DNA of 64,000 nucleotides from a virus, in IMG/VR virus record IMGVR_UViG_3300006923_000013, positions 21,788 through 85,787 of that record; one strand, 5' to 3'. The position numbers were made by a program, and so were the translations under genes. This document shows, one piece after another, positions 1,990-64,000 of the stretch (positions are counted from its first letter, which is position 1; every line of letters starts with the position of its first letter). Under the pieces are notes generated by a model. That model saw only the letters and a list, made by a program, of their open reading frames with translations. It was not told where the DNA came from and did no database searches.

Positions 1990-4900
1990 TTACAGTTATC
2001 TTTAGTATGCGGATCGTCATTAAGGTCGTCCTTACTTATATATTTTTCAGGTCTAATTTGGGCCCTCATTCCTCTTTCTGTTCTAACGAGTTTTAACACA
2101 GGGCTCTTATTAAATACTGTATTGTTTATATGTCCTATATAATTAGCACTTTTTGCATGGTCGTGTTTAAATCCATAAAAGTATTTACCTTTTTTTTGTA
2201 GCTTCTTATCTTTTCCTTTTCCTAATGTACCCTTGTTTAAATATTTGTTACCAATTGCAAAGATCTGAGGAACAGTGAAGTGCAAAAATACAAAATCGCT
2301 TTCTTGTGCAGGTGAAAACTCTCTGTTTTCATTATCATGAGGTATAAAGTTTCTATGGTCATAGTAATCTTTATCCCGCGATAGTGCATCTGAAAACTTT
2401 GCTTCAAATATAGATACCCAAGAAGCATGTCCTTGTTCTGTTACCACTTCATGTTCTGTATTTAAAAAGAAATCAATTAATAACATCTGCGACTGTTCCT
2501 CTTTAGTAAATTTATCTAAGCGTTTATTAAAGTTACCTTTTAGGCTCACAAACTTTTCTACAAGATGAGGATGAGTAGTAATAATTGCATTTACAACTAT
2601 TTTTTCATCCTTTTCAGGTCTAAATACATATATAGGTATAAAATTAGGAATTTCCTTTTTAACATCGGTCTCTAACCACTGTACAACTTCTTGAATGGTA
2701 TCAAAATGTCTCTTACTTTCAGGAATAACGAAATCCAGATCATGTAAGGTTTCAGCTTTATCCCTATATACATTTCCCTGACTTCTTAGAGCAAGGGATC
2801 CTACGAGTACGGCATTTAATTTACTAATTGCCGTTTCCATCACTTCAAATGCTTTTGGAAATTTAGTGGCTCCTTCTTCAAAAGTTTTAAGTGTAAAGTT
2901 TTTATCCTTAGCCCTTCCATATGTTTCCATGAATTTTTTATCCCCAGAAAGAACTTGCTGTGCAATCTCATCTGCCATAATTTCTACTGGGATACTTGCT
3001 ATGGATTTTGCTATTTTAAGTATAGCTTCATACGCCTCATAAGCTAATTTAAGAAATTTACCTTTTGGAACTCGTTTTTCATTAGCGTAAATAATCGCCT
3101 CACCTATTATCTGCCCAATAGCTTCTTTTTTTATTTTCTCCATATTAGGAGAACCATCTATATTTTGATATAGCCTGTTTTTTGCATAAGCACGCTTAAT
3201 GGCTCCAAATTTGCCCCAAGACGTTATATTCTGCATAAGAGGTTTAATCAGATCACTCTTAACGCCTACAAGGTCTACAAGCATATGACTGAACTCTTCA
3301 GGCATTACCATCTTAGTTCTATCTTCTTTAGCTATATCTATAACTTTACGAAGTGTGTGTGCTACACCTAAAACTCCTTCTCCATACCGCTCTTCCATAT
3401 CCTGCATAGAACGTTCTGTAACAATTACTCCATATTCTTCTAAAAAGTCTGCTAAATAATTATCTAATTTTTTATCTGCTTTCTCTCCTAAAGTCTGCAT
3501 TTTAGCAACTATATCCTTATGTCCTTCTAATAACGAACTGAATCTATATGCCATAAGTACATTAAAAGGTTTGCCTTTGTATATAAGAGCATTACGTTGC
3601 AGCCAACGCTCAATTATATCAATTTCATCTTGACTGAATCCATTTTCAGCTAAAAATTCCTTATCGCTGGGTTTTAATTCTTTACCATCAAATACCGATT
3701 GTAAGTCTGCAGCATTCTCCATAAGAGTTGCAGCTCGTTCTACTTCATTAAGAAATGAGTTTTCTTCTAAATGAAAAAGTGTATTCACATCTGTAGTCTC
3801 ATTTGGAGATGTAGATAACTCCACTTCTACTAATATGCCCGCTTCTTTAAGTTTTTTAGTAGCAAAGGTTGTACCTACAATAACATTTTTTTGTAGTGCT
3901 TTATCTAAAAGAATAATATTATTAGTATTTATATTAGATCCTTTTCCCTCTCTTAAGAAAGGCTCAAATAAGGTTTTACCTCTATCGTTTTTTCCTAACT
4001 TGTTTACTACAACATATACAGGGAGCTGCTTTGAATTCCATCCTGCATGTCTGTATAATCTTTCATTCACTGTTACATACTTGGTAACACGAGTAACCTC
4101 TTCTCTTCCATCTATCAATTCTGTTTTAACAAGAGACGTATCTCCTGTAGCAAATCCGTAGACCTCAAGTCCTAACTCACTAGTAACTTTTTCTGCAAAT
4201 TTATCGGATATTTCAGGTACTAAATCTGTATTATGTGAATTATTTCTAAAGAAGATATCTAATTCTGCTCTTGAAAATAACCCTGGGTCAGTAGTATCTG
4301 AAACTACAGCACTACCTCCTTTGCCGTCTGATACCTCAATTGTGTTTGCTTCTTCATTAAATCGGTCAAATAATTCATCCTCTAATGAAAGGGGCATTAG
4401 TTCATGAAAACTAAAGAGTTTATTTGTATACCCACTTACAATAAAGGAATATAGAGCTAAATCTTTAGCAAATGCTTGTACTTTTTTATCTTCATGTAAG
4501 TAGAGTTGTTCCCAAGCTTCTGTAAGAAGGTCTTTACTTACTCCGTCTTTTTCTTGTGTATTTGGAACAGTTATACTTCCTATTTCATCCTTAATATTAG
4601 AGATATTACCTTTAGATGCAAGTAAATATTTAATAAGTCTGTTTTCTTTTATAGGAGACTTACTAGAAGTCTGCCAGAATGCAAGCTGATTCACAATATT
4701 GTTATCACTTATTACAAGTTCCTGGAATTTCTCTTGTGTAAGACTTTTTGCCTTCTTAGCAAGATACATACTGTATAAATCTCTATAGGCCCTTCTTAGC
4801 TTTTCTGGATTTTTACTGAAATACTCATTATTGGACATTTCTTCTATCTGCCATAATGCTGATCCAAATCCAGCACTTCCAATATTAAAAGAGTCTTTAA

Positions 4901-7900
4901 ATAACGAGAGCATTAAAGATGTAGAGTTATCTCTATATTTAGCAAGCATTGTGTTTTCAAATCTAGCTGCTATACCCCGTAATCCTGTATCTTGTAATGC
5001 ATCACTAAGTTTACGTTCAGAGACCAATGAGTTTACCATTCCTCCACCTGCACCCTCCACATCTTGTTTAGATGCTCCAATTGCAGAACTAAGTACTGAT
5101 GCCCGTTGGCGTAAGTGAAAAAATGTTTCCACTACAGTAAGTTGATGTATAATATGCTCAATATCAGTAGCTTCTTTATTCTTGATCCCTTCTTCTAATG
5201 TAGATATATTTAAAAGGTTATCAAGTTTTAATGTGTTACTTCCAAATTTAGAATTTATATTCTTTATTTCATCTTTAAATGCTTTCTCTGCGTTTATATA
5301 CGACATACCCTCTCCCTCCATTGTCTCTATATACTTCTTCTTATAATCACGAAGTACTGCTTCCTTATCTGTTAAAGTCTTTTTAGTTTTTTCATCCCAT
5401 ATCCGTTTAGTATTACCCGCACGTGTGTATTGAGCATATTCTACCCATTCTTTAAGTATAGGCTGAGACATGAACATATCAGTCCATTCTGGGTTCGCCC
5501 CGAGGCGATCTAACAGAAATACAGTATTTGCTGTGAACTCATTATTGTTTAGATAAAAGATATAAGGATCTTTTGCTATATCCACATATGCATTAAGTCT
5601 ACCTGAAATGATATTAGTGATCGTACCTTTTGCAGTATTGTAAATTTGAGAAAGATCAGAGAATCCTGATTTGGTTTTATTACCAATTCCTAAATTTTCT
5701 GAAAAATACAATGGAGATTCTTCGCTCACGTTATCTGAAAGAGAGAACTGAGAAATCGCATGGTCAACCAATTGACGTGCAGTAAGTGCTACTCCTGTTT
5801 TACCTCCTACAAATTGCTGCTTTACATCTACTTGAAACGAAGCTGAAAACCACTCAAGATCTCCTTTGACAGACATGGCGTCTGTCACAAACTTTATAAA
5901 ATCTTCAAGTTTATCTGCAGCAATAAGCGCTTCACCCCTTGCACGCATTTTGTGATCAAAAACTGTAGTATAATTCTCAAAGAATCTAACTTTTGCAGCT
6001 CTGAATTTTACTCCAATGGAATCCAAAGGAGTAATTAGGTCTATATATGTTTTAGGATCACTTATAACAGCATCGTATATCTCAAGTTTTCTATTTTGAA
6101 GTGCTTTCTTACGAATTGCTCTTTTTTTCGAATAGTATATCTCTGTAGCCTTTTCTTTTGAAGTCGTTCCTTTTTTATTCTTTTCTTGTATCGCTTCTAT
6201 TTGCTTTTCTGTTGGAGGTAATATAGGACCTTTCATAGATTCCTTATATTCTATATAATAAGGTTTACCTGAATTTTTATCCACTCCAAAATTAGGAAGC
6301 ATAATGAACATCTTATCGATGTCGAAATCCGAACCTGTCTTAGCTGTGATATCATCGTATGCTACTACCGCATCTCCCATAGATTTCGGTAAAAACCCTA
6401 CAACTTCAAATGCATCGATAGAGCTCATACCTTGATTTGGTATTCTATATGCTATACCTCTAAGTAATCGCTTATCAGAGATATATTTCTGAATCTCTGC
6501 AGACGACATCTTTTCGTAATTAGGAATAAGATCTCTAAACCAAGAAGGAAGCATAATTTGGGCCCGAGAGAACTTAACAAATTCGCCGCCCTTATTAACT
6601 TCAGATATACCAGGTTTCAAATCGTTAGGATTAGTAACCATTTCTATCTCTGCCTTTTCTGCATCAGTAAGACTTGACCAGCGTTTAGTACGCTTAAATC
6701 CGAAGTTACTCAACTGAATATACGAGCCACCTGGCATTTTAAGCTTTACAGTACGTGCTGTAATGATAGATCCAATTAATTGGTCGATCTTATCTGCATA
6801 TGGATGAGAGTGAAGAGGGCGTAAGAATCCTCTCTTATCTGCTCTAAGTTCCAATGAATCTAACAGCTTTCTGGGAGTTGATTCTTTCTTACTGAACTCT
6901 TTATAGATTAACTCATGTAATTTAGTGTAATCTGTAATCTGTGGATCACCTTCATCATTAGTAGTTATACCAAATTCTTCATAAAGTTTATCCTTGCCCA
7001 TATTCGACAGTTCTCTGTCTATATCATGTGCCTGTTTAATTAGATTTTGACCCGTAACTTTTTTTCCATCTAAAGTATACTGTGCATTTATCCTAATATT
7101 AGCAAGTAGATTACGTTTAACCTGAGACCCCTCAAGAGACTCAGAAGCTGTGTGAGGACGCAAGTCCTGCTGAAGCTTCCAATACTCATTACGAAGAGTC
7201 ATTACATTAAGCTTCAGTTTTCCTTCACCTGTAAAATGCTTAGGAGATTGGGCGCCGACTTTAATACCTGATTCGAAGATCACCTCATCGATAGGATTAG
7301 TTTTATCTGTCATTGTAGCATACAGAGTTTCTAACTTATCTGTACCCTTTACAACTTGTGGAAATAATACTGCTTGGGAATACTTTATATACGTAGGAAC
7401 CATAAGTCCTTTATAAGGACGTAATTCATAATGCATACCTTTTAAAGGCATTGCAGCTATAAATTTCATATCCTTTGCTGTTCCTGCTCCTGCAAGTAAT
7501 CTTTTATAGATCTCATCTATTTTACTATTGTCCCAACGGCCTAACCTTTTCATAATGAATGCCCAACGCTCAAGTGATATATAGCCCTGCCCATCAGCTT
7601 GGTTTACCTTACTATAAGGTTTAAGAATGCGTTTAATATCTGCTTCTGAGAATCCCCATCCATGCTTTTTATTTGCGGCTTTATAGCTAGCTAAGTACTC
7701 TCCAAAATATGCACTTGGTTCTTCTATATCCCGTAAAACTGCCATTTTGAAGAACTCTTCTCCGACAGCTAAATTTAGATCCTGACCTGGTGCAATAAGA
7801 GATGGCATTCTCTTAGAGAGCTCATCCATATTAAAATAGAAAGCAGGATTACCTGCATATACTTGCATTGCCTCTAAATTAGAAATAATGCTATTAAGAC

Positions 7901-10900
7901 CAAATGCAGCTATTGCGCGTCTGGTTCTTACATCCGCAGAGTGCACTATTTCTCCTGCTTCGTTTACTGTTTGCCCATCGAGGGTACTGAATGCACTGAA
8001 TGTTTTTGTAGCTATAGCATGATTCTTAAGTCCGCCATTCGGATTAGTTTGTATTGTAGAATACCTTAATGCTGTTCCTACTTCTGCTCTGATTCTATCA
8101 TTTATGATATCTGTCATCTTAGACACGAATGCTGGCTTTTCAAGAAGATCCTTAATTACAGGATGAACTATGGTCTTTCCAACCTTAAACCCGATCTTTT
8201 GTAAAAACTCCTCATCATTAAAAGAAGGAAATGTTACGAATTTAGTGCCGTTTGCATTTTCACGTAAAAGCTTTCCTGTCTTCTTATCCTCTCCCTTATA
8301 GTGATAATTTTCTATAAGTTGCGAATCGGTAAGTGCGTGTTTTCCGAACAGTTGTAAATCAGCTTGATATATAGCTGCCATTTCGGTAACAGCATAGGTA
8401 CTAAATATCTTAAGTATATGAGGAGGTATAATATAAGTATCTGTTTTTTTATTATACTCTATCATATTAATATCCGAAGGAGTTAAATATTCTACTCCTT
8501 TATATAGCATCCAAACTCCTTTATCTGCCATAGTTGCAGGGCTGTAAGTATGCTTTAAAGTCATATTTACTCGAAGTGTGTATTCGTCTGCGGGGTTCAA
8601 ACCTTTATAGTCTGTTCCGTGATCGTTTCCTCCCTGTTTCTTGTAGGTATTGAAAGTTTTATATACTAACTTTTTACCTTTTTTCAACTGCTTCAGTAAT
8701 TGCGATTGACCATGATATGGACTTTTTAATAACTCATCTGCATAATAAGAAGACCTGTTCATTTGTAATGTACGCTTCTTGAAGAAATTATTCAGTGAGT
8801 ATATCCAGTAAGTTTTACCTTCTGGACCCAGGATAGTAGTTTGACCAAAATCTTCTGTTACAACTGCCTCTCCTGCAGCAAGTTTCATTACAAAACTCTC
8901 TTTAAGCATATGATTTTCTACGAAATCTACAGCTACATTTCCTTTATTTTTTCCCTTTCCTGCCAAAGTACCCATAGAATATGTAGAACCTGTTCCCATA
9001 AGTTTTGACATGCCACCTATAAATATCCTACGAGCAGTTTTAAATTCTGGAGAAATCAGGTTAAATGCCTGTTCTAATCCCTCTTCGCTCATTTCTATTC
9101 CTAAGTGCTCTAAAAATATACGTGTAGTATGAGAAGTAGACGCTGTAAGACCTTCATTACGTAAATCGAGCATAACTTGTAACCACATAGCACTGTTACG
9201 TGCGGCTACGTCTTTATTAGCTGTAATTACAAGATTCCCCTCTTTATCCTCTTTTTTGCTATATAAGGGCAACTCCTTATGATTCTCAAACCATCTATCT
9301 CGAATACGATATGCTTTACCTTGCTGTTGAGGGTCTATAAACTTATATAGTAAGCTCTTCTGTACCTGTCCTTTTACTTCGTAAACTAAATTCTGATACA
9401 GAACAGTTAAGAAATTGCTATTTGATTTACTCATAGCATTAAAGAACTGTGTCCTTTCATTTATAGGTAACGCTTTTACACGAGTATATAAACTCTCAAA
9501 TGTTCTATCTGAAACCGATAAAGTCTCTAATTTGACCATCATCTGATCGTAAGAAGATATAGTTTTACCTTGTTCATTGGTATATGTAACAGTATCAGCT
9601 AATAAAGCCTCAACTGTGTTCCACATATGCCCAGGATTAGCCATTACAGGCAATCCCGTGTCTACATTCGTAACTAGTTCACCGTTCTTATCAAATAGCG
9701 GTAAAAAGCTAAAGAATACCCTGGTAGTAGTAGTAGCATTTTGCTTACCACTGGTCTCAAACGGAGATTTAGATGCAGCCAAGACATCAGCGTTATCCTT
9801 TCTCGTTTCTTCGTTTTCTCTGATTCCTAATTGTTGTAATCTAAGTTCTGCATGTTCAACAAGGACATCTACTTCTCTTAGTAGTAGTTTTCTCGCATTC
9901 AAAAAGGGCTTTTCATTTTCTATAGTTTCTGCCCTTTTGACCTTAAATTCTAAATATGCTTTAAAGAAAGCATGTAATTTCTTACTCTCTTTCGCATTAG
10001 CTTCAAAACTCTCTATATCCTTGATATTATGAACTCCTCCTATTCCTCCTGCGTTATCTATATAGTGGTGTAAAGTAATATTAACTGTCTGCTCTACTGT
10101 ACGGGGGTCTAAGGGAAGCCTCTCCATTGCTAAAGCATGTAAACCTTTTCCACTGCGCCACGCTTCTACTTTAGCCGATATAGGCTTAGTATTAGCGTAA
10201 TACCCTGCAGACATACGGTAGAACAGTAAGTCTGTGTGCATACGGGTTTTAGGATTCATCATATATCCGACTAAAGCCTTGATATACTTAAACCATCGTA
10301 TTACCTTCTCTCCTACTCCTGCAGTTTCACCTGTAGTTTCCCAATATCTATACTCTTCAGCACGTATTTCAGAATAATAGATAGCCTCTGCTACTTCTTC
10401 GGTAATATCCTTATGTTTAGATTGAATCTCTTTGATCATGGCTTTGGTAGGAACACCAAATTGCTGCCTGGTCTGAATATCTAATCCTCTACGTTGCTCT
10501 GGTGCAAGCCATAATTCTTCAACAGCATGATAGGCTTCGTGGTACTCTGCGCCATGTACAGCCTGTTCAGATAAAGTAATCATACCCTTTCTAAATACAC
10601 CGTATGCATATGCACCTTTTCGTCCTAAGCTTATCAGGCTCTTTTGAATATTAACAGGAACAGTATCTCCAAGTACTCTCTTTAAGTATGCCCGAGCTTT
10701 AATCTCGTTGAATTTCTCTTTAGGAGCTTTTTCCGAAGTGTCGTCCCCTACCTCTACTTCCATAGAAAGGTTTTCCATGTCATCGCCAAACTGGAAGTTA
10801 TGACCCTCGTTTGTGGTTTCTTTTTTTGCTGCAGTTTTAGTATCTTCTTTCTTTTTTTCTTCCTTTTCTTCCCTACTCTTATTATGCACTTCAGTATTAA

Positions 10901-62480: not shown

Positions 62481-63129
62481 TTGAGACGATTGCAAGTGAT
62501 AATATTAATAAGCATTCCATTTTCTGTATGTTATAGCACAAATATATACAATTATTATGAAACCGTAATATTTGTCCAGTATTTTAAGTAATAAACTGGA
62601 CATTCGTGTACACGATCAAGCACGGGCACCTATAGTAATGTAAACCAGTAGGTGGACTTATTCCAGTGAATGTAAACCATTCCGTTTACTTCCTCCTCCC
62701 CCTTGCCCTAAGTTCAGGGAGTTTATTTTCTTTCGCACAGCACCAAATCCCCCTCCCCGAAATTTTTTTGTGCTGTTGCAAGGTCCCATACACCTGAGAG
62801 ATATATCTCAGGTAGCGCATACGCTTTTGTATCGTAAATGTTGATAGTTGTCTATCGTTGCTGTATCTAATATTATACAGCCTAAGACGTAGTGGCGCTG
62901 AGTCATATCCTTGATTCTCGTGTCAGCGTATCCCGTTTTATCGGTGGATTACAAATCTACGGAAAATAATTATTATAAAATTTTTTTATCAAAAAAAAAT
63001 CTTTGTGTGGTCGATTCGTTGATCCTACATAAATCAAACTCCCCTACTAAACTTTGGTGGGAAACGTCCCCCGCCAGGTGCACTTAGCATCGAAAAGCAA
63101 CTGTGCTTGGGACATTGCAACAGTACTGT
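62481..63129. promoter_or_regulatory. Divergent intergenic region with hairpin cluster and AT-rich tract
   Basis: No convincing gene. Inverted repeats: TGTCCAGT 62573-62580/62595-62602; CACCTA 62627-62632/62649-62654; GTAAAC 62672-62677/62684-62689; ACAGCAC 62737-62743/62770-62776; ACCTGAGA 62792-62799/62806-62813; GATAG 62843-62847/62852-62856; CTGTAT 62861-62866/62875-62880; CGCTGA 62896-62901/62923-62928. AATGTAAACCA is directly repeated at 62637 and 62669, 32 bases apart. A strongly AT-rich tract covers 62963-63003. GTCCC and GCAC pairs frame 63066-63112. This could hold divergent promoters, hairpin promoters for the virion RNA polymerase, or a replication origin. Confidence 0.6.
62539..62546 (-). 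promoter_or_regulatory. Candidate -7 promoter box at the head of the leftward convoy
   Basis: The minus strand reads TATATTTG, matching TAnnTTTG, 58 bases upstream of the SET-gene ATG and next to an 8-bp inverted repeat at 62573-62602. Good position for the main late promoter; no clear -33 box. Confidence 0.4.
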
Positions 63130-63480
63130 ATGGAACAGTCGTCTGTAGCAGCTATCAGTCTTGCGTTTCTTAGCAACGATTGGGAACAGGTTAGTGCACC
63201 TGAACTCTTCGAGCTAAGCAACGGCAGAGTGTACATTCGTGTGCTCTTTGTAGATGTTGATACATACAAAGCCTCTAAGGCATCTGAGAAGATGGCTAAG
63301 GAGTTGGGTATGGAGTTCAACACTGACTCATTAGCTGAAGTAGGTCGATGTGTACCACAGTTCTTTGACTCGAAAGAGCAGGCATTGGGCTATAAGCTCA
63401 ACACGGTGTGCATGTTACGATCTTCGGATTGGAACAGCAAGCCTAAGCCTTCTTCAAGCGAGTCTGGGGACAGTGTGTAA
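63130..63480 (+). CDS. Small rightward (early-side) protein, unknown
   Basis: 116 residues from the ATG at 63130; a GTG nine codons upstream (63103) is possible. The sequence looks like a soluble protein: MEQSSVAAISLAFLSNDWEQ, a strand pair NGRVYIRVLFVDVDTY, a helix KASEKMAKELGMEF, then PQFFDSKEQALGYK and a Ser/Pro-rich tail. No family recognised. It is the first gene in the plus direction after the divergent junction, so early expression is likely. Codon choice and base composition are more GC-rich than in the leftward genes. Confidence 0.6.
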   Translation: MEQSSVAAISLAFLSNDWEQVSAPELFELSNGRVYIRVLFVDVDTYKASKASEKMAKELGMEFNTDSLAEVGRCVPQFFDSKEQALGYKLNTVCMLRSSDWNSKPKPSSSESGDSV

Positions 63481-63496
63481 GCATTGAGAAGTCGTT

Positions 63497-63644
63497 GCGT
63501 GTGTTGAGCCTTAGGGAGTTCCACACGCACGGCTCATCCTATGGTGCCCAGGAAGTAGTTTAGCCTGGGCTGTTGGGGTACAAGCGTGTCGGGTAAGGGA
63601 GGTGATAGCCTCTTACCTGGCACGTTGTGCTACTCTTTTTTTTT
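63497..63644 (+). ncRNA. Candidate structured RNA: pseudoknot, hairpin, long stem and T run
   Basis: The 278 bases between the two plus-strand genes lack an ORF and fold strongly. An H-type pseudoknot is possible: GCGTGTG 63497-63503 with CACACGC 63522-63528, and TGAGCC 63505-63510 (inside that loop) with GGCTCA 63531-63536. Next comes hairpin GCCCAGG 63546-63552/CCTGGGC 63564-63570. Then a 13-bp stem, C63585-G63597 with C63612-G63624 (two G-U pairs), continued by 3 bp beyond a bulge, and nine T at 63636-63644. GC content is well above the surrounding genes. It could be a free RNA with its own terminator or a 3' element of the upstream gene. No known RNA family recognised. Confidence 0.5.
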
Positions 63645-63652
63645 ATTCACTT

Positions 63653-63678
63653 GTACATCTACGGAAACGTAGGTGTAC
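63653..63678 (+). promoter_or_regulatory. 11-bp hairpin with GAAA loop upstream of the second rightward gene
   Basis: GTACATCTACG (63653-63663), loop GAAA (63664-63667), CGTAGGTGTAC (63668-63678), one G-U pair if RNA. It contains a CTACGGAA repeat. It may be an RNA element or a DNA hairpin promoter of the N4 virion-polymerase kind. Confidence 0.4.
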
Positions 63679-63758
63679 TTAAACAAAACCCTACGGAACA
63701 GAAATGCAATTATCAAACATCCTTGTTATTCTTTGCTACTAATTAAAGCACAACTATC

Positions 63759-63962
63759 ATGGACAAGAGAACAGCCATTACAACATGGGTAGAGATCATG
63801 GGTAACACCATCGCTACCTTAGACGACAACGAGTCACTTACTACATTCTTTATTAAAGACACTGTAGTTGTAGGATTTCACAAGAAACGCTACGGAAAGG
63901 GACAACACTCCAATTTGCCTCAAGAACTGATTGATTGGAAAGAAGAACAGGAAGCTATGTAG
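63759..63962 (+). CDS. Small early-side protein, unknown
   Basis: 67 residues, MDKRTAITTWVEIMGNTIAT then SLTTFFIKDTVVVGFHKKRY, a compact strand-rich core with a charged end (LIDWKEEQEAM). No motif recognised. The leader is A-rich (taaagcacaactatcATG). The stop codon lies inside the stem-loop of a strong terminator, so the gene is probably a monocistronic unit or the end of a short operon from the junction. Confidence 0.6.
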   Translation: MDKRTAITTWVEIMGNTIATLDDNESLTTFFIKDTVVVGFHKKRYGKGQHSNLPQELIDWKEEQEAM

Positions 63963-63977
63963 CTTCTTGTTCTTTTT
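63940..63977 (+). terminator. Intrinsic terminator overlapping the stop codon
   Basis: A long stem, bases 63940-63956 pairing with 63961-63977 (17 bp with two G-U pairs), closes on the 4-base loop ATGT and runs into T-rich sequence. The gene's last codons and TAG are within it. Confidence 0.75.
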
Positions 63978-64000
63978 AACACTAACGTAACCAAATGAAA

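Follow-up and report, generated by a model that had tools for sequence, protein, structure and literature searches.

The stretch at positions 63481-63758 of the DNA analyzed here most probably marks the junction of two short early transcription units in a crAss-like phage, a terminator followed by a promoter, and not a new RNA gene; we put the probability of this explanation at about 0.82. The window, meaning the whole stretch of 64,000 nucleotides, covers bases 21788-85787 of a viral record of 85,787 bases, and its right end is the record end. Another contig, IMGVR 3300025066_000045 (46,401 bases), has virtually the same sequence and overlaps both record ends, so that contig and record close to a circle of about 94 kb and sequence to the right of the window becomes visible. 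The large terminase belongs to PHROG 6681, with its nearest annotated relatives in Flavobacterium, Cellulophaga, Bacteroides, and crAssphage genomes, and direct comparison relates the two largest proteins of the minus strand to the RNA polymerase subunit of phage phi14:2 and the protein associated with it (E 2e-31 and 3e-49). Because of these terminase relatives and polymerase-related proteins, we assign the phage to the crAss-like group; on sequence grounds, the window comes from a marine crAss-like phage of about 94 kb. The leftward genes up to 62495 form the late side (terminase, an endolysin-like protein, and others), the rightward genes from 63103 form the early side, and an ORF-free divergent region, conserved in relatives, separates the two. 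PHROGs and Pfam gave no name for the early proteins or the two large polymerase-like proteins, a DNA similarity search against annotated phages returned no match, and counts from a sigma-70 promoter scan were not above those in shuffled sequence.

An earlier sequence-only reading had placed the stretch between early-side genes, and it does separate the first two plus-strand early genes. The first (63103-63480, plus strand) encodes 125 amino acids of unknown function and ends in TAA at 63478-63480. We consider this frame a true gene since a homologue lies in the same place in a related locus, L017 (31% identity over 81 residues, E 8e-13). The second (63759-63962, plus strand, ATG at 63759) encodes 67 amino acids and, outside this record, turned up in just two contigs, both from the same phage species. 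A further terminator-like hairpin with a T-run (63940-63977, plus strand, -21.2 kcal/mol) lies over its stop codon, and in the first early units of this phage a hairpin stands at the end of each unit. Between the two genes no ORF of at least 40 amino acids is present, in agreement with the earlier description of the stretch as ORF-free and GC-richer: GC content is 45% over 63481-63758 and 54% in the first 160 bases, compared with 37% for the record.

The stretch folds far better than expected by chance, with a minimum free energy of -99.6 kcal/mol against -73.5 +/- 5.0 for dinucleotide shuffles (z -5.2), beating 200 of 200. This stability is unevenly distributed, with z scores of -3.4 for 63481-63571, -6.0 for 63575-63645, and -5.7 for 63653-63678; 63682-63758 is unstructured (z 0.06). 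All the helix arms proposed from the letters alone are present, including, on the plus strand, a 7-bp hairpin at 63546-63570 (GCCCAGG/CCTGGGC, arms 63546-63552/63564-63570, z -2.1) and an 11-bp hairpin with a GAAA loop at 63653-63678. A stem of 13 bp followed by nine T had also been described; the T-run does abut the stem, but the stem is longer, at 27 bp (63575-63603/63608-63636). The wobble pairs, read earlier as a sign of selection at the RNA level, point to a plus-strand RNA because the two strongest hairpins are far more stable on that strand than on the other (-34.7 against -17.5 kcal/mol, and -16.8 against -11.5 kcal/mol). RNA-level structure on the plus strand, adjoining early genes, is thus supported. 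As the earlier reading held, it carries no familiar signature: no tRNA or tmRNA was found within the 64-kb window, Rfam gave no family in the window at curated scores, and at permissive thresholds only sub-threshold chance matches appeared in 62500-64000.

The 27-bp stem with its T9 tract is most likely an intrinsic terminator of the first early gene (63575-63644, plus strand, -34.7 kcal/mol, z -6.0). It begins 95 bases past the stop codon, and the T9 tract at 63636-63644 sits at the stem end. As in Rho-independent terminators generally, the stem is GC-rich, nine U follow it directly, and it lies just 3' of a gene on that gene's strand. It differs from them in the unusual length of the stem and in the two further hairpins that precede it. 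Relatives support this assignment. Twelve relatives in which the first early gene could be identified were sampled, and in 9 of these 12 a hairpin and T-run with an energy of -12 kcal/mol or lower lies no more than 180 bases 3' of its stop codon, compared with 42 of 300 random stretches from the same loci (14%). The corresponding Fisher p value (7e-6) is overstated, since the relatives are not independent of each other. L030 is without a good hairpin and T-run, the U-run is poor in L034, L037, and L025, and in phi14:2 a long hairpin and then TTTT follow the first early gene, a case not counted under the T-run rule used. The sequence of the hairpin differs in every phage compared while its position is kept, which is the pattern expected of terminators.

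Downstream of the terminator lies a 55-bp direct repeat (63682-63736, plus strand; core TCAAACATCCTTGTTATTCTTTGC at 63713-63736), which is probably an early promoter. It occurs in three copies that are 75-80% identical, at 3246, 3548, and 4493 of locus L010, each ahead of one of the successive early units. The first two copies stand 22 and 29 bases ahead of a start codon, and the third precedes a long ORF-free stretch leading to a conserved 167-aa gene. A 36-base core of the repeat was found only at these three sites and in 0 of 200 shuffles. The pattern TCAAACnCCC..TA..TTG also precedes the first early gene and is present in relatives, and the shorter TCAAACnCCC....TA recurs at 63034, within the first early gene's leader, which brings the number of copies to four, all of them early, intergenic, and on the plus strand. 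In six relatives (L025, L030, L034, L036, L037, and L066), the motif stands in the first leader and a second time behind the hairpin of the first gene. This repeated order of motif, gene, and hairpin is best read as promoter, gene, and terminator.

In such an arrangement, RNA polymerase would cross the first early gene from left to right and copy its 3' UTR, of which the hairpins at 63490-63570 are probably part. The 27-bp hairpin would then form in the nascent RNA and, together with the nine U, release the polymerase by intrinsic termination. Past the terminator, the 55-bp repeat would serve as the promoter for the unit that starts at the ATG at 63759. The enzyme reading these units would presumably be the virion RNA polymerase that phages of this group encode; according to reviews, it transcribes the early genes in phi14:2 (PMC10136315 and PMC8375218). 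No promoter sequence of a crAss-like virion RNA polymerase was found in the literature searched, and the repeat offers a concrete candidate. The junction itself would be ordinary transcriptional punctuation in an unusual kind of phage. It shows that short units, each with one motif at its start and a hairpin at its end, make up the early region in this phage group. The hairpins at 63490-63570 and 63653-63678 are needed for neither the termination nor the promoter role and are not explained by the junction; they may stabilize the 3' end of the mRNA.

The dense structure upstream of the terminator could also be read in favor of a discrete small RNA, with 63481-63644 released from the first early mRNA, or transcribed apart from it, and acting as a regulator or decoy. 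Small RNAs that derive from a 3' UTR and end in an intrinsic terminator are of a known kind, and the stability of 63481-63571 and the high GC content would suit one. However, no promoter-like element was found between the first early gene and the hairpins, Rfam has no match, and among 55 related loci none carries sequence akin to the 160-base 5' part, which has no homologue beyond the same species, so there is no sign of a conserved RNA. We consider a small RNA of this sort unlikely. The free-standing regulatory or decoy RNA proposed in the sequence-only reading finds no support, given that the strongest structure is the terminator of the first early gene, that terminator-like hairpins are likewise placed in relatives, and that the 3' third is an unstructured repeat. 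The same dearth of sequence relatives, along with a GC content unlike that of the rest of the genome, might instead indicate well-folded but functionless hairpins that arose by chance or from a decayed insert. This is very unlikely in view of the two hairpins with z scores of -6.0 and -5.7, the strand asymmetry of the wobble pairs, the placement of T9 exactly at the stem end, and the hairpins at the corresponding position in relatives.

An H-type pseudoknot at 63497-63536 had been proposed as well, and its arms are where they were said to be, at 63497-63503/63522-63528 (GCGTGTG/CACACGC) and 63505-63510/63531-63536 (TGAGCC/GGCTCA), all in Watson-Crick pairs. The pseudoknot begins 16 bases past the stop codon, and with arms so perfectly complementary it could in principle affect translation there by frameshifting or read-through. 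The complementarity holds, but the fold itself is uncertain: a nested hairpin at 63490-63534 (plus strand, z -2.7), which draws on the same bases, has a minimum free energy of -21.4 kcal/mol, compared with -9.8 and -7.8 kcal/mol for the two pseudoknot stems alone. Moreover, there is no long frame to enter, as all three frames close shortly after the stop, and the pseudoknot is not conserved in the 55 related loci. A role in translation is therefore extremely improbable. The junction of a terminator and a promoter remains our preferred explanation for the stretch.

Through the analysis of the junction we also came upon a leader hairpin that covaries and is described in no library. This hairpin, element A (62883-62935, 53 nt, minus strand), belongs to the late-side leader, approximately 550 bases upstream of 63481-63758 and on the opposite strand, and is conserved in 22 phages with strong compensatory changes. 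Across the 22 aligned sequences, pairing holds in 100% of the cells of its 6-bp stem, and five of the six pairs change on both sides. There are 35 double-change cells against 8.3 +/- 3.0 in shuffled alignments, a count reached in 0 of 500 shuffles, and the signal is lost when the alignment is slid by one to three columns. U-G wobbles at two of the pairs are standard only on the minus strand, which assigns the RNA to the late-gene side. With a covariance model, one match per genome was found, always in the divergent region, and none in phi14:2. A sequence pattern written for the element matched 16 viral contigs, all the placeable ones belonging to this phage group, and element A is absent from Rfam. 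We regard it as the genuine candidate for a structured RNA at this locus. Element C (62737-62776, minus strand) is of the same character, with mismatches that turn into G-U on the minus strand. Read on the plus strand, it has a conserved pyrimidine-rich loop, CTTATYCCCTCCC, and a variable stem (7 bp here) that changes freely between 5 and 9 bp; it adjoins the late genes in most relatives. That the repeat is the promoter of a crAss-like virion RNA polymerase, and that element A, with C, makes up a new family of structured leader RNAs that marine crAss-like phages carry on the late-gene strand, is a joint proposal whose chances we see as evenly balanced.

On the early side, element B (63034-63075, plus strand) consists of the motif TCAAACTCCCCTACTAAACTTTGG followed by a hairpin (63056-63061/63070-63075) and is conserved in relatives and in phi14:2. 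RNAalifold returned no consensus for it, and the hairpin tested by itself had weak pairing support; consequently, we claim element B as a conserved sequence, with a hairpin that is suggestive, and not as a proven structure. The element, which also appears at 9996-10050 of locus L102, is shared with the distant phage phi14:2. Coliphage N4 has a virion RNA polymerase that uses hairpin promoters. The resemblance is that here, too, the phage presumably relies on a virion polymerase of its own for its early genes, and that the motif in the first leader adjoins a small hairpin. In contrast to N4, the hairpin here comes after the motif and not ahead of the start.

Cellulophaga phage phi14:2 (NC_021806; Crassvirales, Steigviridae) has a comparable layout. 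It has related RNA polymerase subunits, a leader with CCCCCACT..TTTTTTGG..CCCC before its first short early gene, and a long hairpin with TTTT after that gene. However, the sequence of the 3' hairpin is unrelated to that of our phage, and element A was not found there. Its early region also includes an unannotated, ORF-free, and apparently hairpin-rich stretch (L101 2905-3560) that shares AAGTTCACATAA.CAATA with L010 near 6478.

Several other stretches to the right of the window drew our attention. Directly after the third repeat copy, approximately 700 ORF-free bases with stacked hairpins (L010 4548-5280; folding z -5.8 over 4358-5280) are a candidate for a large early non-coding RNA or a long leader. 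Farther on, approximately 1.1 kb (L010 6200-7367) is ORF-free, hairpin-dense, and without an Rfam match; one part of it, 6238-6302, has conserved counterparts in L056, L057, and L060, with two copies in L060. A tRNA-like stretch at L010 10181-10280 has a sub-threshold Rfam match to tRNA-Sec but is not accepted by ARAGORN, and 66 bases close by, at L010 10573-10638, are conserved in L020 and L062.
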